Shown piece by piece: positions 234-58,055 of a DNA stretch of 64,000 bases (position 1 is its first letter; each line of letters starts with the position of its first letter). This DNA comes from an uncultured Acetatifactor sp. (GTDB taxonomy: Bacteria; Bacillota; Clostridia; Lachnospirales; Lachnospiraceae): NCBI GenBank assembly GCA_944384205.1, contig CALWSL010000009.1, positions 1-64,000 of the forward strand, given 5' to 3'. The translations under genes were made by a program, and so were the position numbers. The notes below the pieces were generated by a model, which saw only the letters and a list, made by a program, of their open reading frames with translations, had not been told where the DNA came from and searched no databases.

Positions 234-575
234 GTGCGCCTTGCGGCGCACGTTTCTAACGGGGGAAAGTCCCTAATCTGCCCTGGTAGTGGGAAGGATA
301 CAGTCAAGACCAAGGGTGTCCATTGTGAGGTGGAATCTGAAGGAAGGTGGAGGCAAATCTCTGGTCTGACGAACAGAAATGCTGGCAGATATATGGAGAG
401 AAAGAAACGTGTGGTACCAAGGCGGTTACGAACATCATGGGAAGGACTGAACTTTAGGAGACACAAGCAAATACATGTCCATGCTTGACTATTATCCAGT
501 AGTCTATGAAAACTAAAGAACCGCCGTGTACCGAACGGTACGCCACGGTGGTGAGAGGTCGGGGAAACTTATTTT
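234..575 (+). mobile_element. ORF-less group II intron relic
   Basis: The segment begins GTGCGCC, matching the conserved GUGYG 5' end of group II introns. About 285 bases later, at 519-552, is a domain V-like hairpin: the lower stem pairs CCGCCGTG with CACGGTGG and the upper stem is TACC-GAAC-GGTA. One extra base at the internal bulge departs from consensus. GTGAGAGGTCGG, typical of the domain V/VI junction, follows. There is no room for a reverse transcriptase/maturase and no fragment of one is seen, so the element cannot move by itself. The 3' end is uncertain because domain VI is not clear. It sits directly behind a transcription terminator, a site preference known for some bacterial group II introns. 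Confidence 0.6.
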
Positions 576-8578: not shown

Positions 8579-11500
8579 TTAATACTTTAAGCTGTCCGTT
8601 GCTTTTTTCCAACTCTTTTCAACCTGCCTGTCTGCAATCCTGGCGATATCTCTGGCAAAGCTGTTGGCATCGTTTACCGCACCGGTAAAAGTGATATTGC
8701 TTTGAATCGTTACGGGCTGATTGATGTTTTTCTGCGCAATATCGGGTAATTTAGGCAAAGCCAAATCAGGAACCATACTGACAGGATTCATCTTAGCCCA
8801 CTCGAACAGGTTATCTGTCTGAGCTTTCGTCAAAATCTGTGAACCCTCCGGCATAAGCGCATAGCTGCCGTTTAACAGCTTCGGCAATCCTAATTCATAA
8901 CCTTCCTCGTCCTTGATAAGCAGTTCGCCTTTTGTGCTTCGTGTACCGGCAGCGTAAGATTTAATATAATAACCTGCTGCATAATTTTTACCGGTACCGC
9001 CTTTATATTCATTTAACTTTTTCCTGGCGTCTTCAGCAGAAGTGTATGTTATACCGTCTACAGAATTACCCTTGTCATCAAGAATCTTGTATGTTTTCTT
9101 TGCTGTGGCAGTAGTGGAACCGGTCTTTTTTTGGTCGCCGGAACCGCCGGAATTATCAGAGCCGCCGGAACTATTGCTGACGTTGCCAACTGCCTTTCCA
9201 GCAGCTTCAGCACTTTCTTTAACACTGTTTAAGGCATTGGTAAGCGTGCTGACGTCATAGCCGCCCTCCAATGCGGTTTTAAGCGCATCGCCCAGAGACT
9301 TTGCCATATTGTACAGATTCTCCGCAGAGGTATAGGCATTTGAAAGCTGAGTCACAAAATCCTCTGATTTCTGTGAGAAGAGAGAAGAGTAGGACAGAGA
9401 CGCTGAGTCCGCCTGAAGCCGGAGTATTTCTGTTTCGTTTTTTATGACACCAAGATTCCATGCAAAAGCAGAAGTACCGGCTGATAAAGCCTCCCCATAT
9501 CCTGCAATGGCACCCTGACCATTCTGCCATGGAGATGTTACCGTTTCCGACACGGTAACTCCGTGTTCTTTTGCCACTTCTGCAATCCGTTCCCCTATAG
9601 CGGCGGCATTCTGTTTCACCGCATCAAAGGAATTGGCAATCAGTTCTTCCCTGTCAGATAAAGGCTCCTCAAGGGCTTCGATTTCCCCGTCCTTTTTGGT
9701 TTCAAATTCTTCGTACTGCTTATTTAAGGCTTCTTTCTGCGCTTCTATGGAATGCTCGTACTGCGCCTCCTCAAGTTCTTCCTTCGCTTCCGCAAGTTCC
9801 GCTTCTAACAGTTTACGTTTTGCTATACCGGCAGCGCTATTGTCATTTCTCATTGCAGAAATTTGTTGCTCTAAATCTGTAACATTTTTTGTTTTTTCGG
9901 AAATTGACTTTTTATAGTCGTGCAATTCTTTCTCGGCATCCAGTGCTTCAATCTGCGCGTCCACAAGCTCCTTGTAAGCATCCTTTTCTTTTTCGATACC
10001 TTCAATGATTTCATCCACACGAGCTTCATTAAGTTCCACGATAGCATCTTTGGCAGATTCACTAGCTTTGACAGCTTTCCACTGACCTTCTGACAGTTCA
10101 GCAAGTTTTTCGGCATATTCGGCAGCGGAATACTTCCCGTCTGCATAGTCCTGCTTTAATTCCCTGATGGCATCGTTGTAGTCAGAAATGGATACCTGTG
10201 CCGCTTCATACTGCTGTGCCAGCAGTCCGAGTTTTGCGAGGGCGTCGGCAGTCCATTCTCCTGTAGAATCGTCTGCAACGTCAATATCATCAAACAAATC
10301 AACCAGATTTTCTAATTCAGACTGTACATTAGAAATCGCTTCCCGCTGACGGTCAAAGGTATCCCAATCCAGTTGAAGAACTGCGTTATCGTATTTTTCG
10401 ATGGCGGTCTGGCAGTCAATGATTTCACCTTCTACCCCGGACAGTGTTTTTACCATATCCAGCCATTCCTCAGAGCCTGCCTGAATGTTGCCGGATGACA
10501 AAGCCTGTTCCAGTGCATCGGCAAGACCGTTTTTCTTTTCCGTAAGGGTTTCCAGCTGTTTTTCCGCAAGGGATTTCTGTGCTTCATAATACGATGCGCC
10601 GACTAATTCGCCCATTTCCTCCAGCAAAGAAATCTGTTTGTCAATGTTGGTGATGGCAGAATCTCTTAAATCATACCGGTCATCGAAGTCCTGCGCAATG
10701 TTGTTGAACTTCTCTAATTCTAACTGTGCAATGGTTTTCTTTAGATTTGTAAGCTGCTGATTGCAGTCTGCAACCTTATCTGCCCATTTCTCATACTCTC
10801 CAATGGCGTCTGCAACCGCTTCATTTCCGTCTCCGACAAAATCCGTCAGACTGACCGCGCCGTTTTTAACTTTCTCCGCAATGCCGGATGGGATAGTGGC
10901 AAGAATTTTTTCTGCTTCGTCGGTATACATGGCGAGGGCGTCGGTGTAGTTTCTGACTTTTTCTTTATTGATACTTAACTGACCATCAATGATGCTGTTT
11001 TTTGCAAAGGAGCCTGTGATGTTTTCCAGGCTGGACTTAAGCAAATCCAGGGAATTGTCAAGCACTTCGATTCTGCGCTCAAAGAAGTCTATGAGTTCGC
11101 TGAATTCGGATTCTGCAGAAGAAGCGTTTTTCGCAAAATCACCGCTGATGCTGCTGAAGTTTGCTTCTATCCCGTTATAAATCACGTTGTTCAGGTCATC
11201 CATTGCTTTCTTCGCCTGTTCATACCGGCTAATCTGGCTCATGATTTCAGCGTACTGCTCATGGGATTCTTTGTTTGAACTCTGAGATAAAGTGGAAAGA
11301 AGTACGTTGCCTTCGGCAGTCAAAGCCATGGATTGAGCATCATAATACCTGCTCCAATTCTTACCAAGCGATTCTATGGTATCTATTGTAATATTGAGTT
11401 TTGCTTCGTGGTAAGATTTGTAATTTTTTAAATCGATACCATAGTTATCCTTGAAGGTGTTTATAAATTCCGTATCTGATAACACAACGGAATGATAAAA

Positions 11501-13924
11501 GCTTTCGCTTAACTCGTTTTTGGCAATCAGAGCGTTCCCATAATTATGCAAATCTGTCCGGTAATGCTCCGTCAACGCTTTATAGAGTTCGTCCGCACTG
11601 ACCGTACCTGCATAGAACCCAGCCACAAGGTCATTCAGTTTTTGGCTGAGTGAACCGACGGAAGAAAGGGTTTCATCGGTCATGCCGTTGGACATGGCAT
11701 TTTTAAAATCATGCATGATGTCATAGGATTCCTGGATTGCGGAAAATGCAGCATCCAGTTGCGGGACAACACCTGTCGCCTCGTCAGCGATGGCTTGTAA
11801 ATCGTCTCTTACATCGGAAGGAAGCCCATCCCCAAGGGTATCATATAATTCCTGTAAAGAATTGTAGATTAGGTTTGTAATGGCTTGTTCCAGATTTTCG
11901 GATTCTCCCTGCAATTCGGGGAACTCCTGAATAAAATCGGTCAGCGCACCGTTACCCATGGAACCAGATTTGAGAGAGGAGAGTGCGTCTGAAAGAGTTT
12001 TTACGTTGGACTGGAAATTATCTATGGATTGGGATTGAGATTCGGTGAAAGAGAATAAACTGTCCGTTTCATTGTTAAAGGTTTCGCTTTTAACTTTATT
12101 GTACATTTCAACTGCTTCACTAGCAGTTTTAGCCCCATCGGTTACTTTATTCCAATAATCAATTTCATACTCGTCATTAATAGAGTTGTCCTTAAAGAAC
12201 TTATATAAATCAATATCATTTGCCTCACCAACAAATTTCGACATCGCAGTATTATATTTCGTCTTTAAGTCTTCAACATCATCAGTAATATCGCCAAAAC
12301 TCAATTTAATAGCAGGATAATTTTCTTTGCAATATTTACTAATTTCATCAATTCCAGTTTTAACTCTAGTTTCATAATCCTCAATAGATTCATTTTCTCC
12401 TTGTGGATTATATAGATTATTAAAACTAGATAGAAGAGTTTCATCTGTGGATAATTTATTTACAAAATCTTTTAAATCTGTAGCCATAGATGAAAATTTC
12501 TCTTTTGTCATATCATTATAATCAAAAGAGTCAATCATGCTAGTAATATTTGATTTTGTACCTTCTTCTAAGTCATTATAAGTATCACCAACAGCTCTAG
12601 CATTAAGATTTAGTTGATCTTTATATTGCTGAAAATATTCTTGTTCCTCGCCTTCAATTCTAGCAAGTTCTTGGAAGTATTCGCCTGCACCACGAATTAA
12701 TTCGTCAATCTGTTCATCTGTGAACCATTGATAAATAGGATTGTCTTCGTTTGATAGGCTGTTTGCAAATTTTTCAAAGTTTTCTTTAGAAGAAGTGATT
12801 TTATCACCAAGTTTTGATATATAGTCATTACCATCTAAATTATGATAATCAAACTCACCATATAAATATTCACTAATTTTAGAAGCCATATCATAATCAT
12901 TCAATGGACTTTTTATACCATTAATTGTTTTGGTATATTTCTTACTACTAATAGCTTTGTTGGCGTAATTTCGTAAATCCTTCCATACTAAATCATATTT
13001 AGTTCCTGATACAGTCTTTGTATCACCAGAATTGTCAAAATCTTTCTTTTGCTCAATAATACCAGCAGCAATCTCTTCGTTTTTAGATTTTGTTGTGCTA
13101 TTTCTAAGACTTTTTTGATATTCCTCATCAAGTAAATCTATTGACATTTGCAATAGATTGTTCTTATTAGAAATTGCTCGACCTTCTTCATCCCACCCGG
13201 TAATTAACTTTGGAGTAATACCAAGAATTTCAGAAGTGATATCTCTATATCTTTCATATTCGTCAGCAGATAAAGATGCTTTAGCACCATTTTCTCCTAT
13301 TTTAGATGTAAGAGAATCATATTCGTCTTTTAGTCCAACTAATGTGTTATGTTCACTTTCATAGTCGGAAGATATTTGAGAAAGCTCTTGTTGCAATTCT
13401 TTTGTTTTCTCTATTGCACGCTCAGAAGCGGTGGTTAAATATTCAATACCCTCAATTACTTTAGAAATAGCAAATGATATAGACATACCAGCCAACATAT
13501 TGCCAGCTATAGATAAAGCTTTTACACCAACAGCAGCAACCTTAGAAGCAGTTCCAGTATTTTGAATAAACTGCTTTAATGCCTTCTGCTTATCAGCATA
13601 AATTTGAGCAGAACCGGTACCATTTTTGATATTCTTAGAATATTCTTGTGCCTGTTCACTTGCTTTACCCATTATTCTAGTGAAGTCGTCAGATGTTATT
13701 GTCCCATTTTTACAAGCAGTTTCGTAATTTCTCAAACATTGAATATCAAGATTCGTCTGTTTAATTGCTTGTTCTTGAGCTATTTTTCTTGCTTGTAAAG
13801 CACCTACAATTTTTTGACCAGATAAAGTTGTTTCATCATCTATCGTCTTGAATATCGTACTATTTTGATGTATAATTATAAAAATCATACAAAATTGCAC
13901 TATGTGGAGTAGTGCATTGAGCAT
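8579..13924 (-). CDS. Tape-measure protein, second exon B and C-terminal part
   Basis: The frame is formally open from an ATG at 13924, but the first 23 codons lie in intron-like sequence. The phage-like part starts at 13855 with I-F-K-T-I-D-D-E-T-T. About 1,758 residues follow, mostly helix and coiled coil with a hydrophobic stretch around A-G-M-S-I-S-F-A-I-S-K-V-I (about residues 145-160), as in tape-measure proteins that set tail length. The C-terminus runs to the Dit gene. There is no ribosome binding site at the ATG. The first 1.8 kb (from about 12,060 upward) is clearly more AT-rich than the rest. I infer that it is expressed as an exon joined to the N-terminal piece at 20,112-21,317. 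Confidence 0.75.
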   Translation of the reverse strand: MLNALLHIVQFCMIFIIIHQNSTIFKTIDDETTLSGQKIVGALQARKIAQEQAIKQTNLDIQCLRNYETACKNGTITSDDFTRIMGKASEQAQEYSKNIKNGTGSAQIYADKQKALKQFIQNTGTASKVAAVGVKALSIAGNMLAGMSISFAISKVIEGIEYLTTASERAIEKTKELQQELSQISSDYESEHNTLVGLKDEYDSLTSKIGENGAKASLSADEYERYRDITSEILGITPKLITGWDEEGRAISNKNNLLQMSIDLLDEEYQKSLRNSTTKSKNEEIAAGIIEQKKDFDNSGDTKTVSGTKYDLVWKDLRNYANKAISSKKYTKTINGIKSPLNDYDMASKISEYLYGEFDYHNLDGNDYISKLGDKITSSKENFEKFANSLSNEDNPIYQWFTDEQIDELIRGAGEYFQELARIEGEEQEYFQQYKDQLNLNARAVGDTYNDLEEGTKSNITSMIDSFDYNDMTKEKFSSMATDLKDFVNKLSTDETLLSSFNNLYNPQGENESIEDYETRVKTGIDEISKYCKENYPAIKLSFGDITDDVEDLKTKYNTAMSKFVGEANDIDLYKFFKDNSINDEYEIDYWNKVTDGAKTASEAVEMYNKVKSETFNNETDSLFSFTESQSQSIDNFQSNVKTLSDALSSLKSGSMGNGALTDFIQEFPELQGESENLEQAITNLIYNSLQELYDTLGDGLPSDVRDDLQAIADEATGVVPQLDAAFSAIQESYDIMHDFKNAMSNGMTDETLSSVGSLSQKLNDLVAGFYAGTVSADELYKALTEHYRTDLHNYGNALIAKNELSESFYHSVVLSDTEFINTFKDNYGIDLKNYKSYHEAKLNITIDTIESLGKNWSRYYDAQSMALTAEGNVLLSTLSQSSNKESHEQYAEIMSQISRYEQAKKAMDDLNNVIYNGIEANFSSISGDFAKNASSAESEFSELIDFFERRIEVLDNSLDLLKSSLENITGSFAKNSIIDGQLSINKEKVRNYTDALAMYTDEAEKILATIPSGIAEKVKNGAVSLTDFVGDGNEAVADAIGEYEKWADKVADCNQQLTNLKKTIAQLELEKFNNIAQDFDDRYDLRDSAITNIDKQISLLEEMGELVGASYYEAQKSLAEKQLETLTEKKNGLADALEQALSSGNIQAGSEEWLDMVKTLSGVEGEIIDCQTAIEKYDNAVLQLDWDTFDRQREAISNVQSELENLVDLFDDIDVADDSTGEWTADALAKLGLLAQQYEAAQVSISDYNDAIRELKQDYADGKYSAAEYAEKLAELSEGQWKAVKASESAKDAIVELNEARVDEIIEGIEKEKDAYKELVDAQIEALDAEKELHDYKKSISEKTKNVTDLEQQISAMRNDNSAAGIAKRKLLEAELAEAKEELEEAQYEHSIEAQKEALNKQYEEFETKKDGEIEALEEPLSDREELIANSFDAVKQNAAAIGERIAEVAKEHGVTVSETVTSPWQNGQGAIAGYGEALSAGTSAFAWNLGVIKNETEILRLQADSASLSYSSLFSQKSEDFVTQLSNAYTSAENLYNMAKSLGDALKTALEGGYDVSTLTNALNSVKESAEAAGKAVGNVSNSSGGSDNSGGSGDQKKTGSTTATAKKTYKILDDKGNSVDGITYTSAEDARKKLNEYKGGTGKNYAAGYYIKSYAAGTRSTKGELLIKDEEGYELGLPKLLNGSYALMPEGSQILTKAQTDNLFEWAKMNPVSMVPDLALPKLPDIAQKNINQPVTIQSNITFTGAVNDANSFARDIARIADRQVEKSWKKATDSLKY
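10355..11120. repeat. 766-bp direct repeat, copy in exon B
   Basis: Identical, as far as I can read, to 15144-15909. Both copies are in the same reading frame and encode the same 255 residues of tape-measure coiled coil. The copies are 4,789 bp apart, start to start. Confidence 0.9.
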
Positions 13925-13963
13925 ATTGTGGAGATATGCTATAAACGCTATGTGGAGTAGCGT
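13896..13963. promoter_or_regulatory. Three tandem hairpins with identical 7-nt loop TGTGGAG
   Basis: Plus strand: TGCACTA-TGTGGAG-TAGTGCA (13896-13916), AGCATAT-TGTGGAG-ATATGCT (13920-13940) and ACGCTA-TGTGGAG-TAGCGT (13945-13963). All stems are perfect and all differ, while the loop is invariant. On the minus strand the loops read CTCCACA and lie about 40 bases before exon B. On the plus strand they form the leader of the gene at 14011. Selection on loop and pairing, not stem sequence, points to an RNA or single-stranded-DNA recognition element. Function unknown. Confidence 0.85.
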
Positions 13964-14010
13964 ATTTTAAGAAACAATATTATCTAATAAAATAAAGGAG
14001 ATGTTAAACT

Positions 14011-14661
14011 TTGCAAAGCTTAAATAGGAAAGAAATGGCAATCAAAACATTATTAATTTTGATTTCAATATTATCAATTTTACTAATTATAGAAGGCATT
14101 GACGGTATTAAACATTCCTTAGACATTATCGAAAATCAAGGTGGATTTGATATATACCCTATAAATCATCCTGATACAATAGTACAAGAATGGTATTATT
14201 GTATCTTTAGAAATGTGTTATTTACATTATTCCCTGTGATGGTCTTGATATTATCCATGATTTCAATATTTGTCAAAAACAGAATTATTGAAATAGTAAT
14301 AATTGCACAAACCGTTTTAACATTATTGCTTGGAGCAACAGCTAATTATAAAATTATAGGTGAAACCATTAGCTATTACACATATATAGTAATAGCATTT
14401 TCGATTACCTTGATACCTATAATCATATCTGTGATTAAAGAAAAAACTGTATTTGTTTTCTACATCATCGGAATTGTTTTGCTTATTGCAAAATATGTTA
14501 ATGTCTACAAGTTTTGGTACAGCAGAGTAAGAGGAGACATGTCTTTGTTTAGTTGGTTTGATATGTATGGTGTTAAATATGCAATTATTACTATTTTAGG
14601 ATTTTGCATACTTATACTCAAACGACAAAAACAAAACAACAAAAAAATAATCAAATCATAA
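14011..14661 (+). CDS. Polytopic membrane protein of unknown function (cargo gene)
   Basis: 216 residues, AT-rich, opposite in direction to all surrounding tail genes. AAAGGAG lies ten bases before a TTG start at 14011; the ATG at 14035 is an alternative. About six membrane segments are visible, including residues 10-26 (L-L-I-L-I-S-I-L-S-I-L-L-I-I), 68-90, 93-112, 122-140, 146-165 and 185-205. No catalytic motif is recognised. It sits between the hairpin cluster and a shared terminator, inside the segment that interrupts the tape-measure gene, and ends with a basic K/Q/N tail. Confidence 0.65.
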   Translation: MQSLNRKEMAIKTLLILISILSILLIIEGIDGIKHSLDIIENQGGFDIYPINHPDTIVQEWYYCIFRNVLFTLFPVMVLILSMISIFVKNRIIEIVIIAQTVLTLLLGATANYKIIGETISYYTYIVIAFSITLIPIIISVIKEKTVFVFYIIGIVLLIAKYVNVYKFWYSRVRGDMSLFSWFDMYGVKYAIITILGFCILILKRQKQNNKKIIKS

Positions 14662-14709
14662 AAATCACAACCTTTCTTTGAAAAATATGTATATATTATT
14701 TATACACAC

Positions 14710-14752
14710 AAAGAGGATACCTCAAATTATAAATAACAGAAGTATCCTCTTT
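14710..14752. terminator. Bidirectional terminator between convergent genes
   Basis: AAAGAGGATAC and GTATCCTCTTT form an 11-bp stem with A and T runs on both sides. It serves the plus gene ending at 14661 and the minus gene ending at 14784. Confidence 0.8.
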
Positions 14753-14783
14753 CTATATATAAAATATAAATTTGCGTTATGTA

Positions 14784-14957
14784 TTAAATCTGAACGTTAC
14801 ACTTTGTATTCGCCAATATACAAAGATAACCCTTTGTTTCTAACTCTTTTTTATCTCTCTTAGCCTTTTCAATATCTGACAACGCATAATTATCTTCAAA
14901 GAAAATAGAAGAGCGGAAGTCATCAATATTCAACGCTATAAGTTTTATGTATTCCAT
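14784..14957 (-). CDS. Small unknown protein (57 aa)
   Basis: The ATG at 14957 overlaps the TAA of the preceding minus-strand frame (TAATG), a sign of coupled translation. The sequence starts M-E-Y-I-K-L-I-A-L-N-I-D-D-F-R-S and is charged in the middle (D-I-E-K-A-K-R-D-K-K-E-L-E-T-K-G-Y). A terminator follows. No family recognised. Confidence 0.5.
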   Translation of the reverse strand: MEYIKLIALNIDDFRSSIFFEDNYALSDIEKAKRDKKELETKGYLCILANTKCNVQI

Positions 14958-15143
14958 TACGCACAATCCTCCATATCCTTTGCTGTTTCAAGAAGAGTAC
15001 CAACATCAAATTCATCAATCAAATCATATTTTTTAATAAGTCGATAAATGAATTTAAGATCTCTTGCGGTAACTAAAGTGACAGGTGTATTGTACTTTTC
15101 TTTAATCTTAATCTTGAAGTACCCTTGCTTTATGTATTTATTT
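14957..15143 (-). pseudogene. C-terminal fragment resembling a phage antirepressor (KilAC-like)
   Basis: The frame reads N-K-Y-I-K-Q-G-Y-F-K-I-K-I, then N-T-P-V-T-L-V-T-A-R-D-L-K-F-I-Y, and ends ...M-E-D-C-A. A G-Y-F-x-V/I-K followed by T-x-V-T-x-x-G/D-L pattern is typical of the end of KilAC/ANT domains, so a KilAC-like origin is possible but not proven. The upstream part is missing because the sequence joins the 766-bp tape-measure repeat at 15143/15144. The frame is formally open through the repeat to 15217, but that part is antisense or off-frame to the tape measure and not original. Confidence 0.4.
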
Positions 15144-18100
15144 AAAGGTATCCCAATCCAGTTGAAGAACTGCGTTATCGTATTTTTCGATGGCGGTCTG
15201 GCAGTCAATGATTTCACCTTCTACCCCGGACAGTGTTTTTACCATATCCAGCCATTCCTCAGAGCCTGCCTGAATGTTGCCGGATGACAAAGCCTGTTCC
15301 AGTGCATCGGCAAGACCGTTTTTCTTTTCCGTAAGGGTTTCCAGCTGTTTTTCCGCAAGGGATTTCTGTGCTTCATAATACGATGCGCCGACTAATTCGC
15401 CCATTTCCTCCAGCAAAGAAATCTGTTTGTCAATGTTGGTGATGGCAGAATCTCTTAAATCATACCGGTCATCGAAGTCCTGCGCAATGTTGTTGAACTT
15501 CTCTAATTCTAACTGTGCAATGGTTTTCTTTAGATTTGTAAGCTGCTGATTGCAGTCTGCAACCTTATCTGCCCATTTCTCATACTCTCCAATGGCGTCT
15601 GCAACCGCTTCATTTCCGTCTCCGACAAAATCCGTCAGACTGACCGCGCCGTTTTTAACTTTCTCCGCAATGCCGGATGGGATAGTGGCAAGAATTTTTT
15701 CTGCTTCGTCGGTATACATGGCGAGGGCGTCGGTGTAGTTTCTGACTTTTTCTTTATTGATACTTAACTGACCATCAATGATGCTGTTTTTTGCAAAGGA
15801 GCCTGTGATGTTTTCCAGGCTGGACTTAAGCAAATCCAGGGAATTGTCAAGCACTTCGATTCTGCGCTCAAAGAAGTCTATGAGTTCGCTGAATTCGGAT
15901 TCTGCAGAACCGTATGCTTCGCCTGTAGTCTTCTCAACGGCAGATTTGTAACCGGAGCCGCCGCTGTATTTCACGGTCGGTTTAAAATTAGCAACCTCAG
16001 TCTGGACCTCTTTAGCTGCTTTTTGCATTTCAGCTGCGATAGCAGATGCTTCGTTGCTTCTTCCTGCACTGACAGCCTTTTCATATGCAGCTTTTAATCC
16101 AGCCAGTCTGCTGACTGCCTTTGTGGCAACACCTGCCGCATTTGCCATGGAGAGAAGATTGTTGATATCTGCACTTGTATTGAGTGGCATGTTATTTATG
16201 TTCATTTTATCCAGGCTATAGGTAATCAGTGCATCGGATGTAAGCCCCAGCTGTTCGGCTTCTGCGATTAACGACCGGATTTCTTCGTAAGTGGCGTTTT
16301 TTAAGTCAATTTTTGATAATTGGGCTAAGAATTCTGAGTCAGCTTCCGATTTAACATTTTTGGATAACTGTTCGTAAACGGCAGACTGTTCTTTTTTGGC
16401 TTCGGATAAATACTTCGTATTTTTAGCAAGCTGGTATTCCACGACCTCCAGAGCGTTGGCAACGCCCATCTGGGAGAGCATTTCAACAGTGGCCTGTTTT
16501 GTCTCCTCTGTGAGATTGGACATGATGCTGTAGCCGTCGGAATCTTTTGCAGAGTAAACGTAGGAGGTCAGCAGGTCATCAAATGCGGACCGGCATTTGT
16601 CCAGATCGTCAGGAGCTTCGGATACTGTCCTGATAAAGTCATCGTAGGATTCGCCCATATCACCGAAAATGTTTGTAAAGCTTTCGTTATTGAAGATGGA
16701 AGACCAGTCGAAGTCCTCTTTGTCCTGGATATCCGTGTAGATTTTGTCTAATTGTTCGAGACCTTGGGAGAGGGACTGGACCTGGGAGAGAATGTCGGTG
16801 TAGGAAAGGGGCGATTTCACGGGAAGGTCTTCAACGCCTGCCTTAATCTGTTCTATGACCTCATTGGCTGTAAACCCGGCTTCCTTAAATTGTTCTATGA
16901 TTTCTTCTGATAAATCATCAACCGACAGGGTACCGTTCTGAGCCAGCTCAATCAGTTCTTTTTGTACATTACCGGATAACCTGTTAAACACTTCATTAAA
17001 TTTTTCCGTCTGCACTGACGCGGGGTATAAGCACTCGCTGATCGCAACAGATAAGCTATGCCAGGACTGCGATGTTTCATCGTCAATGCCGTATCTGTCC
17101 ACATAATCATCCAGGTCAACTGCCGCATCAACTAATTCATTCCGCCATTCTTTGAGTTGCTGTTCCTCTTCTTCAGAAAGTTCATTTCCTTCTTTCTTTT
17201 TCTGGTTTAATTCGTTATAAGCGTTTATGGTTTCATGGATATGTTCCGAAAAAGAAGTTTTTTCACCTACATTTGTCTCCCAGACATATATTTCAGCTTT
17301 AAGTTTCTGCAATTCCTCATATTCAGCACGGGTCAGGTCATATTTGGCTTCTAATTCCGTGTGGCGATTGCGTTTTGCTTCGATTTCATCATTATCTGCC
17401 TGTGTGCCTATAGTTTGATAAAATTTGCTGCCATATTCTTTGTCATATTCTTTTTTTACGGAATCGGCTATTTCCTGCTGTTTCCTTGCTTCCTGCTCTT
17501 CAAGTAATTCTTTCCTGCGTTCCAGCTCGTCATTTTCTGCTTTTAAATTTTCCAATTCCTCTTTTTCCACAAAGGATAAGCTGTCTTTGGCATTTAATTC
17601 ATCAATCCTGTCACCGGTAGCGTCCAGTGCTGAATTTACATCTTCAATACCGGATTGGATATCAGACAGTTCACTTTGTAGGTTCTTGGTTATTTCCTGC
17701 TGTTCTGCGAGAGTAGTGTGCAAACCGTCTATGAATCTGACGAATACGCTGATTAGCTGTGTGGCTGCCCACATAAGCAGCATGTTGCCTGCTGCGGAAA
17801 CAGCCTGTAGTGCAACGGAATGTGCCCTTGCTGCCAATGTAGATTGTTCCTGAGCAGCAGTTAAAGCTTGTGTTTCTACGACAGCACCATTTGTAGTTGC
17901 TATTAATTGTGCAGTGGATTTATTGGTACCTTCCATAGCAGATTTCATTATTTTCTGTTTTTCTGCCATAGTAGCACCATTGACGATTGCTCTTTCAATT
18001 TCATTGTTATAACGATTTATCGCTGTTACATCAATTATCGGAGTGCTAAAAAGTGTATTTATTATTCCATTTGCTTTTATGGAAGATATATTTGTTTTTA

Positions 18101-18179
18101 ATTCATTTATGGACTTCCCAAATAGACCAATAGACCTGATTGCTCCCGTAGATTCATCTGTTATTGTTTTGAATATCAT
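15138..18179 (-). CDS. Tape-measure protein, second exon A (C-terminally truncated)
   Basis: The frame starts at ATG 18179 and the shared exon motif I-F-K-T-I-T-D-E-S-T follows at once. There is no ribosome binding site. The 1,013 residues are mainly coiled coil (E-E-L-E-N-L-K-A-E-N-D-E-L-E-R-R-K), with a hydrophobic patch near residues 125-150 (A-G-N-M-L-L-M-W-A-A-T-Q-L-I). The last 255 residues are identical to those in exon B because they lie in the 766-bp repeat. The protein then stops after one new residue (D-T-F-K) at the repeat junction. Without the insertion at 15143 this frame would run on into the C-terminal part at 10354-8579. Confidence 0.72.
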   Translation of the reverse strand: MIFKTITDESTGAIRSIGLFGKSINELKTNISSIKANGIINTLFSTPIIDVTAINRYNNEIERAIVNGATMAEKQKIMKSAMEGTNKSTAQLIATTNGAVVETQALTAAQEQSTLAARAHSVALQAVSAAGNMLLMWAATQLISVFVRFIDGLHTTLAEQQEITKNLQSELSDIQSGIEDVNSALDATGDRIDELNAKDSLSFVEKEELENLKAENDELERRKELLEEQEARKQQEIADSVKKEYDKEYGSKFYQTIGTQADNDEIEAKRNRHTELEAKYDLTRAEYEELQKLKAEIYVWETNVGEKTSFSEHIHETINAYNELNQKKKEGNELSEEEEQQLKEWRNELVDAAVDLDDYVDRYGIDDETSQSWHSLSVAISECLYPASVQTEKFNEVFNRLSGNVQKELIELAQNGTLSVDDLSEEIIEQFKEAGFTANEVIEQIKAGVEDLPVKSPLSYTDILSQVQSLSQGLEQLDKIYTDIQDKEDFDWSSIFNNESFTNIFGDMGESYDDFIRTVSEAPDDLDKCRSAFDDLLTSYVYSAKDSDGYSIMSNLTEETKQATVEMLSQMGVANALEVVEYQLAKNTKYLSEAKKEQSAVYEQLSKNVKSEADSEFLAQLSKIDLKNATYEEIRSLIAEAEQLGLTSDALITYSLDKMNINNMPLNTSADINNLLSMANAAGVATKAVSRLAGLKAAYEKAVSAGRSNEASAIAAEMQKAAKEVQTEVANFKPTVKYSGGSGYKSAVEKTTGEAYGSAESEFSELIDFFERRIEVLDNSLDLLKSSLENITGSFAKNSIIDGQLSINKEKVRNYTDALAMYTDEAEKILATIPSGIAEKVKNGAVSLTDFVGDGNEAVADAIGEYEKWADKVADCNQQLTNLKKTIAQLELEKFNNIAQDFDDRYDLRDSAITNIDKQISLLEEMGELVGASYYEAQKSLAEKQLETLTEKKNGLADALEQALSSGNIQAGSEEWLDMVKTLSGVEGEIIDCQTAIEKYDNAVLQLDWDTFK
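15144..15909. repeat. 766-bp direct repeat, copy in exon A
   Basis: Matches 10355-11120 base for base where compared. Outside the repeat the two exon sequences diverge at once (G-S-A-E-S in exon A, A-S-S-A-E-S in exon B). Identity of this length suggests recent duplication, gene conversion, or a single-crossover insertion. Confidence 0.9.
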
Positions 18180-18193
18180 ATTATGATTTTTAT

Positions 18194-18239
18194 GTACATT
18201 GTGGAAATGTACTTGATTTATACTTTGTGGAGAAGTATA
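18194..18239. promoter_or_regulatory. Two hairpins with loop TGTGGAA / TGTGGAG
   Basis: Plus strand: GTACAT-TGTGGAA-ATGTAC (18194-18212) and TATACTT-TGTGGAG-AAGTATA (18219-18239). Same design as the cluster at 13896-13963: perfect, unrelated stems and a shared 7-nt loop. They end 15 bases from exon A on one side and 30 bases before the plus-strand gene at 18269 on the other. Confidence 0.85.
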
Positions 18240-18268
18240 ATTAAAAACAAAAATGGGAGTAAAGGATT

Positions 18269-18613
18269 ATGATTTATGAGAGAGTTTGCTATATGTGTCC
18301 TAAATGTAATCACATGCATTTTTTCAATGCGGAAGAAATACCTACAATAATTTGTCCTGAATGCAATGTACAAATGGTATGCGTTGAAAAAAAATTTGTT
18401 TCAGCAGAACAAGAAAAAAAAGATGAAGAAAGACGTGAAAGATTGTATCGTTCATACCGTTCAGCAACGATAGTTAATTGTCCATACTGTAATTCGATAA
18501 ATACTTCTAAAATTTCAACAACCAGTAAGGCAGTCAATACTGCAATTTTTGGAATTTGGGGAACTAAGAGGCATAAGCAGTGGCATTGCAACCAGTGTGG
18601 CAGTGATTTTTAA
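18269..18613 (+). CDS. Phage-type double zinc-ribbon protein
   Basis: 114 residues preceded by GGGAGTAAAGG. The N-terminal ribbon has C-P-K-C (10-13) and C-P-E-C (30-33). A charged helix follows (E-E-R-R-E-R-L-Y-R-S), then a C-terminal ribbon C-P-Y-C (71-74) and C-N-Q-C (108-111) around T-K-R-H-K-Q-W-H. Similar small zinc-ribbon proteins are common in Firmicutes phages. It is transcribed against the tail genes and starts right after the hairpin pair. I infer nucleic-acid binding; target unknown. Confidence 0.7.
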   Translation: MIYERVCYMCPKCNHMHFFNAEEIPTIICPECNVQMVCVEKKFVSAEQEKKDEERRERLYRSYRSATIVNCPYCNSINTSKISTTSKAVNTAIFGIWGTKRHKQWHCNQCGSDF

Positions 18614-18679
18614 ATCATCACAATTACGTTCTTTTTAGTAACAAGATTAATAGTTTCAGTATGAAAAATAGCTTTTTAT

Positions 18680-18760
18680 CTTAGAATAGTGAGAAGCCGA
18701 GATGCGTGTTCCGGATGTTAATAGTCTGAGGGGCTGGCAAAATGCCAAGCCCCATAAATA
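18680..18760 (-). other. Structured segment and GC-rich hairpin after the secreted-protein gene
   Basis: On the minus strand GGGGCTTGGCA-TTT-TGCCAGCCCC (18753-18730) makes a strong hairpin 20 bases after the stop of the gene at 18776. Next comes a segment reading CTCAGACTATTAACATCC and GAACACGCATCTCGGC that is GC-richer than its surroundings. The first part may act as a terminator, though there is no T run. The rest could belong to the 3' half of the intron-like RNA. I cannot fold it reliably by eye. Confidence 0.4.
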
Positions 18761-18775
18761 TACACTTTTTCAAAA

Positions 18776-19618
18776 TTACCTAATTAAGGCACCTGTATTC
18801 TCATCGAAGTGATACTGAACACCATCAATTGTCAGATAACCTTTTGCCATAAGTCCTGTCTTGTTATCGTAATAATAAGTGTTACCAGCTTGGGACGGAT
18901 ATAAATCCGCGTCAACCCCTTCAACTGTGTACCATCCTTTATACATCTTTCCGTTGGAATCGTATCGAACCCACTTGCCTTGCTTGTTTACAATAGCATC
19001 GTGTACTTGCTGAGCCATACCACTATCACTTGCGTTAGCATTGTTCCAAATTTCTGTGTCTGACCAATCAGCTTCATTCTGATAAATATATGGCATCCAA
19101 ACTTCCTTGCTTGTGGCTTTCGCTCCATCGTAACAAGCATCGAGCCAATACCATCCATCTGACGCAGAATCATAAATTTCTCTACCTCTTACTGTTCCAT
19201 CACCAATTACGCCTTTAGGGTCATTATATGTTCCTTGCTTTATTCCACCTTCGTACCAATAGGATTTTCCATTTTCTTCACGCCATACACAATCGCTTCC
19301 ACTATTATTATTAGATTCTGAATCAGAGATTGTTTCGACTAATGTAATATATAAATGGCTTGCTGTTGGGGCTTCATTCCATCTATATAATGAGTAGAAT
19401 AATTTTTTGACTTCTAACGTATATTCTCCTAAATCATATCCTTCATTATTGTATTCCGGATACCAAAGCATCCTGATTGTATTTACACCTTTAGCCATCG
19501 TCATAGTAACAACAAGATTTTCATAATCTTCATCTGAGAAAAAAAATACACTGGGATATGATGCCGCCATAACCTTTGATGGAGTCAATGTTACTATACT
19601 TGTCACTGTAAATACCAT
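18776..19618 (-). CDS. Secreted protein with C-terminal cell-wall-binding repeats (cargo gene)
   Basis: 280 residues from the ATG at 19618, which falls inside a signal peptide (V-F-T-V-T-S-I-V-T-L-T-P-S-K-V-M-A, cleavage likely after M-A). The same frame continues upstream for 14 more codons as K-K-N-C-S-K-K-L-I-L-S-I-L-I, the natural basic start of that signal peptide, but the expected start position is TAG (19663-19661). Residues about 25-110 are an unrecognised beta-rich domain. From about 105 on come aromatic cell-wall-binding repeats, ending G-V-Q-Y-H-F-D-E-N-T-G-A. It lies in sense orientation within the intron-like element. It may be impaired by the loss of its start codon. Confidence 0.65.
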   Translation of the reverse strand: MVFTVTSIVTLTPSKVMAASYPSVFFFSDEDYENLVVTMTMAKGVNTIRMLWYPEYNNEGYDLGEYTLEVKKLFYSLYRWNEAPTASHLYITLVETISDSESNNNSGSDCVWREENGKSYWYEGGIKQGTYNDPKGVIGDGTVRGREIYDSASDGWYWLDACYDGAKATSKEVWMPYIYQNEADWSDTEIWNNANASDSGMAQQVHDAIVNKQGKWVRYDSNGKMYKGWYTVEGVDADLYPSQAGNTYYYDNKTGLMAKGYLTIDGVQYHFDENTGALIR

Positions 19619-20012
19619 TATTAGGATAGATAAAATAAGTTTTTTCGAGCAATTTTTCTTCTAAAACCGTATAAAAGTTCACAAAAAATTCACATCTTCC
19701 AGCCTTCCTATCCCCTCCGGCAAAAGAGTTCCACAATACATGAGTGAAAGATAAGATTTTCACATTTATATAATCCTTTCACGGATTATCCTGTCATGTC
19801 AGGCAGTATCGAGCGCATATTCGGTAAGCATCGTTGCATATAACTTACCGTGGAAGTTGTCGCTGCTGTGAGGGCTTGTCTCAGGGAGACCTGTCCCTGC
19901 GGATTCCTTGAGCGTCACGTTGTTACGAACCTGGCTATGTCGCCATAGCAGGAGAGTAGTGATACATTGCCGTTACGCAATCGTTGTACGCGGTTCCCGC
20001 ATATTGTTCCGG

Positions 20013-21317
20013 TTATTTATTTACCCATGTGTATCTCACATTTGATGATAGGAAAACTCCGGTATCCCGGAGAACACATACCATTGTCGGCATATTCAAA
20101 ACAAGGGAACACATTTTATCCCTACCGACGTTTTTGATTCCTGCAAATATCCCCGCACCGAGTCCGATGGTTCCCAAACTCCCAAGGGAACCGGTTAATT
20201 TGTTGATTCCCGAAACAATTCCGTTTAAACCGTTAAGGATGGTAACAGCTATATCAGAATTTGCGATATTTCCAACGGTATCAGTCCAGGTATTTTTAAG
20301 GCGGTTTAAACTGCCTTCCCATGAGTCTGCTGTTTTTTCTGCATCGGCAGCCATGGATCCGGCGCCGTCAGCATATTGCTGAAGCATTTTTTCATAGGTA
20401 TCCCACTGGCTCAGAAGGGCGTCCAGTTGTGTACCCGCTGCCTTGTCGCCAACGGAATTAAGCAGGCTGGTTTTGCGGGGGTCATTGTCCCCCAGCCTGT
20501 TATATGCTTCGGAAAGTTCTTCCAAAACCTCCATCGCGTCTCTTGCCTGCAGCACGCCGTTTACGGTTTCCTTTAAGGAAACGCCCAGGGCATTGCAGGC
20601 TTTCTCATATTCTGCAAGACCTTCTGCATCGATACCTGCTTCTTCAGCAGCAATCTGCCTGATATGCAAAAGAATTGTCCGAAAGGCATCGGCAGCCTCG
20701 GAACCGCTTTGCCGGGTGGCGGACGCCATGGTTCCTAAAGCTGCCGTTAATTCATTCACATCGACGCCGGAAGAAGCGGCAGTGGAACCGACAGCGGACA
20801 TGGCTTCCGATAATTCGGTCATGTCAAGCGCGTTGTTATCGCAAACCTGGTTTACACCATCCAACACTTTTGTTAATTCCTTAACGGACCCGCTCATGTT
20901 ATACGCCTGGTCGGTTGCAGTAACCATTTTATTTGCTGCGTCGGCGGTCATATCGCCGGCGCTTTGGGCAGCCAGGGAAAGTTCAGCCATTGCTTCTGCA
21001 TTTTTATATCCGGCAAGAAGCATGGCCTGAACGCCGGATAAATACTCTGTTGCTGATTTGCCATAGCCGGAAGCCGTGTCAAAAGCGGTTCTGCCGATTT
21101 GTTTTAAATCGGATGAAGTGAGATAACGATTGGTTTTACTGATATTTGTAAGGCAGGTATCAATCTCTTTCAGCTCACTCAGGGCTTCCGAAGTTTCCGA
21201 GATAATTTTGGAAACGACAGTCTCGGCAGACAGCAATCCTGATAAAGTGGAAGAGACCTGTTCCCATTGGTCTTTAAAAGCCTTACTCAGTTTGTTAAAA
21301 ACATCTGTATTTGCCAT
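20013..21317 (-). CDS. Tape-measure protein, N-terminal exon 1 (TP901 type)
   Basis: 434 codons are open, of which about 402 (to the ATG at 20114-20112) look like tape measure. The N-terminal part carries the TP901-type core domain: S-A-E-T-V-V-S-K-I-I-S-E, Y-G-K-S-A-T-E-Y-L-S-G (about 85-95) and S-G-S-E-A-A-D-A-F-R-T-I-L (about 208-220). A Gly-rich hydrophobic stretch (G-S-L-G-T-I-G-L-G-A-G-I-F-A-G-I) precedes K-N-V-G-R-D-K-M. The last 32 residues are translation into the intron-like element. Keeping one G at the boundary joins K-M to I-F-K-T in frame with either second exon. The joined products would be about 1,414 aa (exon A) or 2,160 aa (exon B). Confidence 0.8.
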   Translation of the reverse strand: MANTDVFNKLSKAFKDQWEQVSSTLSGLLSAETVVSKIISETSEALSELKEIDTCLTNISKTNRYLTSSDLKQIGRTAFDTASGYGKSATEYLSGVQAMLLAGYKNAEAMAELSLAAQSAGDMTADAANKMVTATDQAYNMSGSVKELTKVLDGVNQVCDNNALDMTELSEAMSAVGSTAASSGVDVNELTAALGTMASATRQSGSEAADAFRTILLHIRQIAAEEAGIDAEGLAEYEKACNALGVSLKETVNGVLQARDAMEVLEELSEAYNRLGDNDPRKTSLLNSVGDKAAGTQLDALLSQWDTYEKMLQQYADGAGSMAADAEKTADSWEGSLNRLKNTWTDTVGNIANSDIAVTILNGLNGIVSGINKLTGSLGSLGTIGLGAGIFAGIKNVGRDKMCSLVLNMPTMVCVLRDTGVFLSSNVRYTWVNK

Positions 21318-47011: not shown

Positions 47012-47487
47012 GGGCGTAAGTAAGACGGATAATCGCAGCTGCAAATTGCAGGTGAGGAAAGTCCGGGCTTCACAGGGCAGGATGCCAGATAACGTCTGGT
47101 GGAGGCGACTCCAAGGCTAGTGCAATAGAAATATACCGCCACGACTTCACGGCTTATCTGTGGAGAAGAGAAGAGTCCGTGGGAGACTTCTGCATTGTGT
47201 GGAAGAATCCGCAGGTGGATTCTGCATTATTTGCGGAAGTTGCGCGGCAACTTCCCGGCGAAACGCTTTGCGTTTCACCGTGGTAAGGGTGGAAAGGCAG
47301 TGTAAGAGACTACCGTTCGTCTGGTAACAGGCGGAGCCATGTAAACCCCATCCGAAGCAAGACCAAGAAGAAAGCGACAGGTTTGCCCGACCTGCTTTCA
47401 GGTAGGTCGCTTGATGCGGCTGGCGACAGCCGTACTAGATAGATGATTATCCGAGACAGAACCCGGCTTATAGTCTTGCTTACGCCT
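47012..47487 (+). ncRNA. rnpB: RNase P RNA
   Basis: The ends pair as GGCGTAAG/CTTACGCC (helix P1). The universal core is present: GAGGAAAGTCCGGGCTTC near the 5' end and CAGAACCCGGCTTATAG near the 3' end, plus GTAACAGGCGGAGCCATG in the middle. The length of about 475 nt is long for the class. An extra hairpin around 47230-47285 (GAAGTTGC/GCAACTTC and GAAACGC/GCGTTTC) and a second at 47378-47412 explain this. It is the catalytic subunit that matures the 5' ends of tRNA. Confidence 0.95.
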
Positions 47488-57740: not shown

Positions 57741-57778
57741 TATATTCATAAGAAAATTTCATTACATGTTTTGTAAAC

Positions 57779-58055
57779 CTGTGAGAAAGAAGAGTAGGCT
57801 TAAGGAAACATATCAGAGAGCTGCCGGCGGTGGAATGGCAGTATGGGAACTTTTGCTGAATGGACTTTCGAGGCTGACCCGAACTTAAGAAAAGTGTAGG
57901 CGTCGGCGGGATTCGGACCCGTTATCAAGCCGACGGATATGTTAGTATTCGGAACAAGAGGACATTTGTCAATTTGAGTGGTACCGCGATAATAATGATT
58001 GAATTATTACCGTCTCAGATACGTTAGAAGCGTGTTTGGGGCGGTTTTCTTTTGT
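57779..58055 (+). promoter_or_regulatory. T-box riboswitch, tryptophan-specific
   Basis: The leader has Stem I with GTGAGAAAGAAGAGTAGGC, the distal loop GCCGGCGGTGGAATGGCAG, and a specifier region GAATGGAC in which TGG (57861-57863, a Trp codon) is followed by A as usual. The conserved T-box TTGAGTGGTACCGCG is at about 57974-57988. A terminator hairpin follows (ACCGTC...GGGCGGT, then TTTTC), ending about 58053. Uncharged tRNA-Trp would stabilise the antiterminator and turn on the downstream transporter. Confidence 0.9.

Follow-up and report, generated by a model that had tools for sequence, protein, structure and literature searches.

Can a prophage tape-measure gene that breaks off after 398 codons and resumes in two separate downstream frames still yield a complete protein, and through which of the two frames? 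The gene in question lies interrupted on the minus strand of a prophage in a 64,000-nt stretch from an uncultured Acetatifactor sp. (assembly GCA_944384205.1, contig CALWSL010000009.1, positions 1 to 64,000), hereafter the window. The interruption is very likely a group I intron, with helices P1, P3, P4, P6, P7, P8 and P10, that would be removed by splicing. Taken as a whole, we consider it probable that this intron mechanism operates on two second exons, A and B, brought into tandem by recombination, with B offering the productive 3' splice site. The features that carry this reading are as follows.

20124 to 21317, minus strand: tape-measure exon 1, 398 codons, C-terminal K-N-V-G; its end is placed by P1
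20104 to 20123, minus strand: intron 5'-end hairpin AGGGA-loop-UCCCU (helix 2; 5 of 5 pairs changed on both sides, 95.5% paired)
20086 to 20103, minus strand: internal guide, UGUUUUGAAUAU (P10 half) plus GCCGAC (P1 half); P1 covariation over 31 loci, P10 12/12 with both 3' exons
19812 to 20010, minus strand: ribozyme core P3, P4, P6, P7 and P8; covariation over 31 loci
15138 to 18176, minus strand: truncated second exon A (1012 codons); 3' splice site between 18177 and 18176
8579 to 13855, minus strand: second exon B (1758 codons), supplying the rest of the tape measure; 3' splice site between 13856 and 13855

The interruption and its ribozyme core

The opening frame runs from 21317 to a stop at 20013 (434 amino acids, aa), and its final 36 residues are intron sequence. 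Its position and those of the two downstream frames, as given in a first-pass annotation, agree with the open reading frame (ORF) list of the window. The 434-aa frame that holds exon 1 matched PhageMin_Tail in Pfam (7.8e-25) and phrog_4211 in PHROGs (3.9e-47). Exon 1 corresponds to positions 576-937 of the 2625 positions of phrog_4211 and exon B to positions 2168-2615 of the same profile, the C-terminal part matching exon B at 1.2e-35; together with the Pfam match of exon 1 (PF10145), these place the gene in the tape-measure family. It is flanked on both sides by endolysin-like and tail-fibre-like genes, in the layout of a prophage tail region. Exons A and B both open with IFKTI, a G directly precedes each, and no Shine-Dalgarno-like sequence was seen by eye in the 30 bases upstream of either, as had already been described.

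The ribozyme structure was assessed over 31 of 40 core-bearing entries. Left out were L078, L083, L058, L065, L093 and L046 as duplicates or near-duplicates by judgement, L074 and L075 because exon 1 was not recognisable, and L028 for a long insert; the 5' sites of L067, L071, L077, L089, L090 and L091 were placed by hand. Over the aligned loci, 98.1% of cells were paired and 34 of 49 pairs showed two-sided changes. P3 and P4 were 100% paired, with two-sided changes in 4 of 4 pairs of P3, 3 of 5 of P4 and 7 of 7 of P8, while P6 and P7 were invariant and so carry no covariation support of their own. The covariation score was 0.612 for the drawn structure and 0.051-0.124 for slid partners, a comparison biased in favour of the former, since the structure was drawn on the window row, itself in the alignment; the two-sided changes in the remaining rows are independent of that choice.

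The 5' exon and the guide change together: GUCGGU/GCCGAC in the window is replaced elsewhere by AUCGGU/GCCGAU, UUCGGU/GCCGAA, GUUGGU/GCCAAC, GCUGGU/GCCAGC and GGCGGU/GCCGCC. Within P1, the pair at the 5' cut is U.G in 25 of the 31 loci, U-A in 1 and C.A in 5. The interruption thus has a P1 formed through an internal guide with U.G at the 5' site, a P3-P8 core with a P3/P7 pseudoknot, and a terminal G with P10 at the 3' splice site, all features of group I introns. The proposal in the first-pass annotation of a group I intron after exon 1 is supported by this covariation and by P10 at two sites.

The stretch read as R-D-K-M, to which exon 1 had originally been extended, is the covarying intron hairpin, and the 5' splice site therefore falls after K-N-V-G, between 20124 and 20123. 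Consistent with this, six intron-free same-genus genes (L107 to L112, 30-38% identity, open frames of 910-2433 aa) cross the junction in one frame as [KR]DYG-ITQ against KNVG-IFK. Their alignment is ungapped at the junction, with a one-residue gap three residues beyond it in two of the six. These intact homologues bear out that the split gene joins, but at KNVG-IFK and not at K-M; the cut is thus 12 bases upstream, and the extra G once thought to be kept at the join is superfluous, because GGT, followed across the intron and its terminal G by ATA, is already in frame.

By similarity, the intron 5' region was found in 7 of 138 same-genus genomes, own genome counted, and a 22-base core motif was found in 14 virus-contig and 30 genome-contig stretches, whose loci overlap in part; the motif occurs once in the window. 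The core follows an apparent tape-measure exon end in 38 of the 40 entries, duplicates counted and a profile check covering some of them. Two queries against the phage DNA collection gave no intron match.

Two 3' splice sites, their hairpins and tandem modules

The guide half UGUUUUGAAUAU pairs at 12 of 12 positions with the first 12 bases of both second exons, two of the pairs in B being G-U; the exon start that pairs as P10 is ATATTCAAAAC. On both strands of the window, the only G-preceded 12/12 guide sites (G-U allowed) are 18176 and 13855. A first-order Markov expectation is 0.215 such sites per 20 kb, and at least two arose in 5 of 200 simulations; by itself the pairing is thus suggestive, and the weight of the case lies with the relatives. 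In the cargo-free relative L072, the same exon start lies at a 3' site 137 nt beyond the P6-P7 motif, giving a 354-nt intron with P10 at 11/12 and 2174 open codons downstream. The predicted spliced junctions are ...AACGTCGGT joined to ATATTCAAAAC for A and ...GGT joined to ATATTCAAGAC for B, both in frame. The predicted introns are 1947 nt to A and 6268 nt to B, and the predicted products 1410 and 2156 aa, in place of the 1,414 and 2,160 residues first calculated.

Hairpins with a nearly constant loop lie ahead of both sites.

18194 to 18240, minus strand: two proposed docking hairpins ahead of 3' site A, loops CUCCACA and UCCAC
13896 to 13963, minus strand: three proposed docking hairpins ahead of 3' site B, loops CUCCACA
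19729 to 19736, minus strand: proposed dock UUGUGGAA in the 3' domain of the core, complementary to the UCCACA loops

The stems of these hairpins differ between A and B, and the complement of the loop, UGUGGA, lies in the 3' domain of the core. Besides UGUGGA/UCCACA, dock and loop occur as UGUUGG/CCAACA (L066), UUUGGA/UCCAAA (L014), GUUUGGA/UCCAAAC (L069) and, by eye, GUGGUGG/CCACCAC in L013, where the core differs and the interruption is ~10 kb. Of the 22 intron ends, 20 were used (window B and L072 excluded), 18 of them with hairpins; a dock match of at least 6 bp was found in 10 of these 18 loci. Permuting the cores gave p=0.0055 for the number of such matches, a test that relatedness among the loci inflates, and shuffled tails equalled the docking sum in 1 of 2000 cases. 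It is likely, on this sequence comparison, that the UCCACA loops dock on GUGGA in the core. Separately, L090 has CUCCACA-loop hairpins ~1967 and ~1997 nt beyond its core motif with no exon after them, perhaps the scar of a lost module.

In the mechanism that we propose, the intron 5' part (P1 guide and P3-P8 core) would be present once, and the interior would serve as a cargo site. The intron 3' end would be a repeatable module, made of UCCACA-loop hairpins, a terminal G and the exon start pairing as P10. The loops would kiss GUGGA and draw a distant 3' site to the ribozyme, so that the cargo between would be free to vary. Recombination between two alleles in the prophage could have left modules A and then B in tandem. 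Both junctions would be expected to form; splicing to A would give a truncated protein and splicing to B, expected to be the productive reaction, a complete tape measure. The core, P1, P10, the junction and the two modules are supported by comparison, and splicing itself is a prediction.

A search of virus contigs for the hairpin loop plus a 3' site returned 27 stretches. Among 19 records re-searched, G465, G466, G467 and G469 have at least two separate sites on one strand, and G468 has two on opposite strands. Exon 1 lies upstream in each of the first four. The sites are followed by 29, 15 and 1003 open codons in G465, by 72, 14 and 2651 in G469, and by 13 and 2554 in G467; G466, of the same lineage as G469, also has three. 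From coordinates, exon 1 is separated from the last exon by ~10.0 kb (G465), 14.3 kb (G469), 16.2 kb (G466) and 23.5 kb (G467). G483 and G482 are similar in layout, the last site being placed by eye. The predicted 3' module is, by these comparisons, repeated across phages, with short proximal exons.

In some of the short exons, a segment farther along is complementary to the first 12 bases of the exon itself (at least 10/12 pairs, at +31 to +44). This was found at 6 of 12 short-exon sites (L153 7301, L154 9310, L156 9318, L157 19030, L161 4445 and L162 9954; shuffle probabilities 0.007-0.080) and at 2 of 18 long-exon sites. Such a self-complement in a bypassed exon could lock an unwanted 3' site, although we regard this as suggestive only.

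On the strand opposite exon 1, L157 (minus, 8385), L158 (12186) and L160 (minus, 5926) have a sequence that resembles a 3' site and has hairpins; it just precedes an apparent ribosome site and a small gene. At L168 4195-6630, exon 1 of G467 is itself split by ~1.2 kb, perhaps by a second intron. Exon 2 ends at a common sequence, GTAACTATATCGGTTAAA...GACCGAGGAAAGACTG, in L154 (14828) and L159 (10759, both in oriented coordinates), and long frames resume beyond it, possibly after another intron.

The use of exons A and B

The relation between the two second exons is seen in a direct repeat, R.

15144 to 15909, minus strand: direct repeat R copy 1, 766 bp, at the end of exon A
10355 to 11120, minus strand: second copy of R, within exon B, 100% identical to copy 1
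14784 to 15217, minus strand: two small ORFs past the R copy 1 break, a possible cargo remnant

Exon A stops one codon plus a stop beyond R copy 1 and lacks the C-terminal part of the tape measure. The own genome holds no third copy of R (two matches). An 86-aa ORF past the break has a weak relative downstream of the L070 core (8e-9). An A-like exon occurs in L114 (64% over 114 residues) and a B-like exon in L073 (45% over 545 residues), which also has a 216-aa antisense ORF ahead of its exon; a similarity search gave no match between that ORF and the 216-aa ORF ahead of exon B. The simplest history of the tandem is recombination between A-type and B-type alleles, and the arrangement would be viable because the intron can reach B.

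The first-pass annotation had proposed two alternative second exons. The two equally well guided 3' sites, served by one core, stand, and use of both A and B is possible on the sequence, but exon A is truncated rather than intact. A switch of tail length, or of host range, by splicing, suggested at the same time, is unlikely, because exon A is truncated and the C-terminus is supplied by exon B.

Several observations weigh against a spliced group I intron with B as its productive site. The core was not recognised by Rfam, which gave no group I match in 8-21.5 kb at E<=5 or in the relative L016 (E<=10), and no match of any kind in L013 (E<=0.1). A Rfam match is a match to a library, not a defining feature of group I introns. 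The covariance-model check once proposed for this region gave no library match to group I; covariation among the relatives supports a group I core. Few family genomes contain the strict motif (2 of 299, own genome counted), L074 and L075 lack a recognisable exon 1 among the 40 entries, and P1 is imperfect in L071 and L077. In the other loci with tandem sites, guide pairing is weaker at every site than in the window (8/12 in G465, 9/12 in G469, 11/12 in G467); their cores, compared as sequence, differ; and their proximal exons are short, 13-72 codons. The docking test, inflated as it is, was modest for the sum of matches (permutation p=0.032), with 8 of the 18 hairpin loci lacking a 6-bp dock match and 2 of the 20 intron ends lacking a hairpin. 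A long A-like piece ahead of a full exon was seen in the window alone, although L114 may be a second case (A-like, 337 codons, with only 375 nt of sequence beyond). Finally, if splicing to A were efficient, truncated protein would predominate, and the locus may for that reason be defective.

This last point leads to the alternative that survives best, that the locus is dead or misassembled, exon A being debris of a chimeric or degraded prophage to which nothing is spliced. The truncation of exon A at the join of R copy 1 with the sequence beyond it (R1/X) and the division of the assembly into 44 contigs fit such a history. However, the sequence beyond the join is not part of R, so that a collapse at R is no explanation, tandem 3' modules occur in other records, and exon B and its site are intact. 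We therefore think a dead locus unlikely, though it deserves more weight than the explanations that follow.

Regulated alternative splicing, in which both isoforms would be functional and the A form would, for example, act as a short or non-assembling tape measure adjusting tail assembly, draws on two 12/12 3' sites with hairpins ahead of each and a single core, and on an exon A that stays open over 1012 codons. Against it, exon A lacks the C-terminus matched by phrog_4211, no relative was seen to keep a comparably long A exon before a full exon (L114 being a possible exception), and the R copies are 100% identical, such that the arrangement looks recent. We regard this explanation as improbable. 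Slightly more doubtful still is a switch at the level of DNA, in which recombination between the 766-bp repeats would exchange a B-type for an A-type tape measure in the population and splicing would merely tolerate the store. By arithmetic, recombination across the identical, same-frame copies would remove 4789 bp and leave an in-frame A-type gene of 2000 aa; such a deletion runs one way, however, and no collapsed copy was found in this assembly. No recombinase was named in any of the five intron ORFs tested, although plain homologous recombination would need none. Both regulated splicing and a DNA switch are compatible with the intron mechanism, and the likelihoods given here need not sum to one. 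Removal of the interruption from the DNA on induction, as for the excisable elements that a large cargo within a late gene resembles, is very improbable, given that no integrase or recombinase was named in the five window intron ORFs tested and that P1, P3, P4 and P8 covary as RNA helices.

Cargo and known systems

Three ORFs of the window are read as intron cargo.

18776 to 19618, minus strand: cargo 1, choline-binding-repeat protein of 280 aa (PF19127 at 9e-7, passing its cut-off)
18269 to 18613, plus strand: cargo 2, 114-aa zinc-ribbon-like protein, antisense (Pfam zinc-ribbon matches below cut-offs)
14011 to 14661, plus strand: cargo ahead of exon B, 216-aa ORF, antisense, membrane-protein-like by eye

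Relatives of cargo 2 lie in other introns of the family (tblastn), and antisense ORFs ending in a zinc ribbon were seen in 13 of the 21 loci whose intron end is defined, window counted. The window 216-aa ORF had no match in Pfam, PHROGs or PADLOC. Among the five window ORFs tested, Pfam and PHROGs named no defence family, PADLOC covering the 216-aa ORF only.

Elsewhere, defence genes were named, the PADLOC assignments being homology calls. These included NsnA in L077, L079, L013 and L154; NsnB in L066 and L013; a ThsB-like TIR protein in L070; AbiU with Pfam AIPR in L013; an HD protein, weakly dGTPase-like, in L055; a KwaA-like protein in L089; and a UvrD helicase with GajB-like stretches in L071. 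The cargo of G467 includes a methyltransferase, a specificity subunit, AriA and AriB (type I methyltransferase, PARIS-like). PADLOC gave no match for 14 of 30 proteins tested. In L066, L154 and G467 the second exon was located, and the defence genes fall between it and exon 1; in L070, L077, L079, L055, L089 and L071 they lie downstream of the core, the second exon and intron end not being located.

These loci raise a wider proposal, on which we are evenly divided: that the intron is a cargo island at a fixed tape-measure site, in which prophages store and stack defence genes (to ~23.5 kb) within an essential late gene, each unit bringing its own 3' module and the core bypassing earlier modules to reach the last long exon, with some short exons perhaps self-locking. 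If true, a phage can carry immunity genes without loss of a virion gene, and the family would lend itself to studying how the ribozyme of a group I intron locates a 3' splice site across kilobases of RNA and selects it from several. The implication for annotation is that, in such phages, a split tape-measure gene and an orphan IFKT frame may be parts of a single gene.

Other cargo and other interruptions were also seen. The introns of L067, L068 and L069 contain tandem zinc-ribbon genes (3 and 2 copies) or a 173-174-aa secreted-like protein (2 copies). In L113, L115, L116, L118, L119, L120, L121, L123, L124 and L126, differing intron-like starts follow exon 1 at a similar tape-measure position, for example TTTGCTTGACCCC...; TTGGGTTAGCATAT...GTGCGAGG.... 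This suggests that the position is a hot spot for several intron types.

A group II identity is unsupported: the single Rfam hit of that kind in 8-21.5 kb, to a plastid group II intron, fell below threshold (28.4 bits against a gathering cut-off of 90; E 4.4). Near the window start, Rfam placed group II intron D1-D4-3 at 319-412 (+), with 73.3 bits; farther along the window, outside the prophage, it placed an RNase P RNA at 47017-47486 (+) and a T-box leader at 57772-58020 (+).

Among known systems, the Clostridioides difficile cyclic di-GMP riboswitch-group I ribozyme splices at alternative sites, with ligand control of the 5' site. Here it is the 3' site that has alternatives, and a riboswitch was not among the Rfam matches in the region. 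IStrons likewise combine a group I intron with protein genes (PMC4227781), but neither a transposase nor TnpB was recognised by Pfam or PHROGs among the five ORFs tested from exon 1 to exon B, and an IStron identity is thus unsupported. The intron of the Clostridium tetani surface-layer gene is another ribozyme intron of bacteria, for which four alternative splicing reactions are reported; there it is a group II intron in a cell-surface gene, here a group I intron in a phage tail gene (PMC3919590). In the capsid and tail genes of Cluster J mycobacteriophages, whose group I splicing was demonstrated by reverse-transcription PCR (RT-PCR), U ends exon 1 and G ends the intron, again in virion genes; unlike here, the passages on these introns describe one 3' exon each, and the capsid intron has a homing endonuclease (PMC3706429). 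Other phage introns are described from genes for terminase, polymerase, ribonucleotide reductase and the like, with endonucleases as their cargo (PMC8541194, PMC7344957). Among the open-access literature matches listed, as far as their text extended, we recognised neither a phage group I intron with alternative 3' exons nor a tape-measure intron with defence cargo.

The closest likeness is to vibriophage ICP1, where RNA sequencing and RT-PCR showed tape-measure introns to be removed at the RNA level (PMC10448857). There, too, introns of variable content interrupt the tape-measure gene and the junctions are kept. In contrast, the ICP1 cargo is described as homing endonucleases and the resulting proteins as near-identical, whereas here no endonuclease was recognised among the cargo and a single core precedes two 3' exons. 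Tape-measure introns are thus known; what this locus adds is an intron that looks like a cargo site, with a 3' end that looks like its repeatable part.

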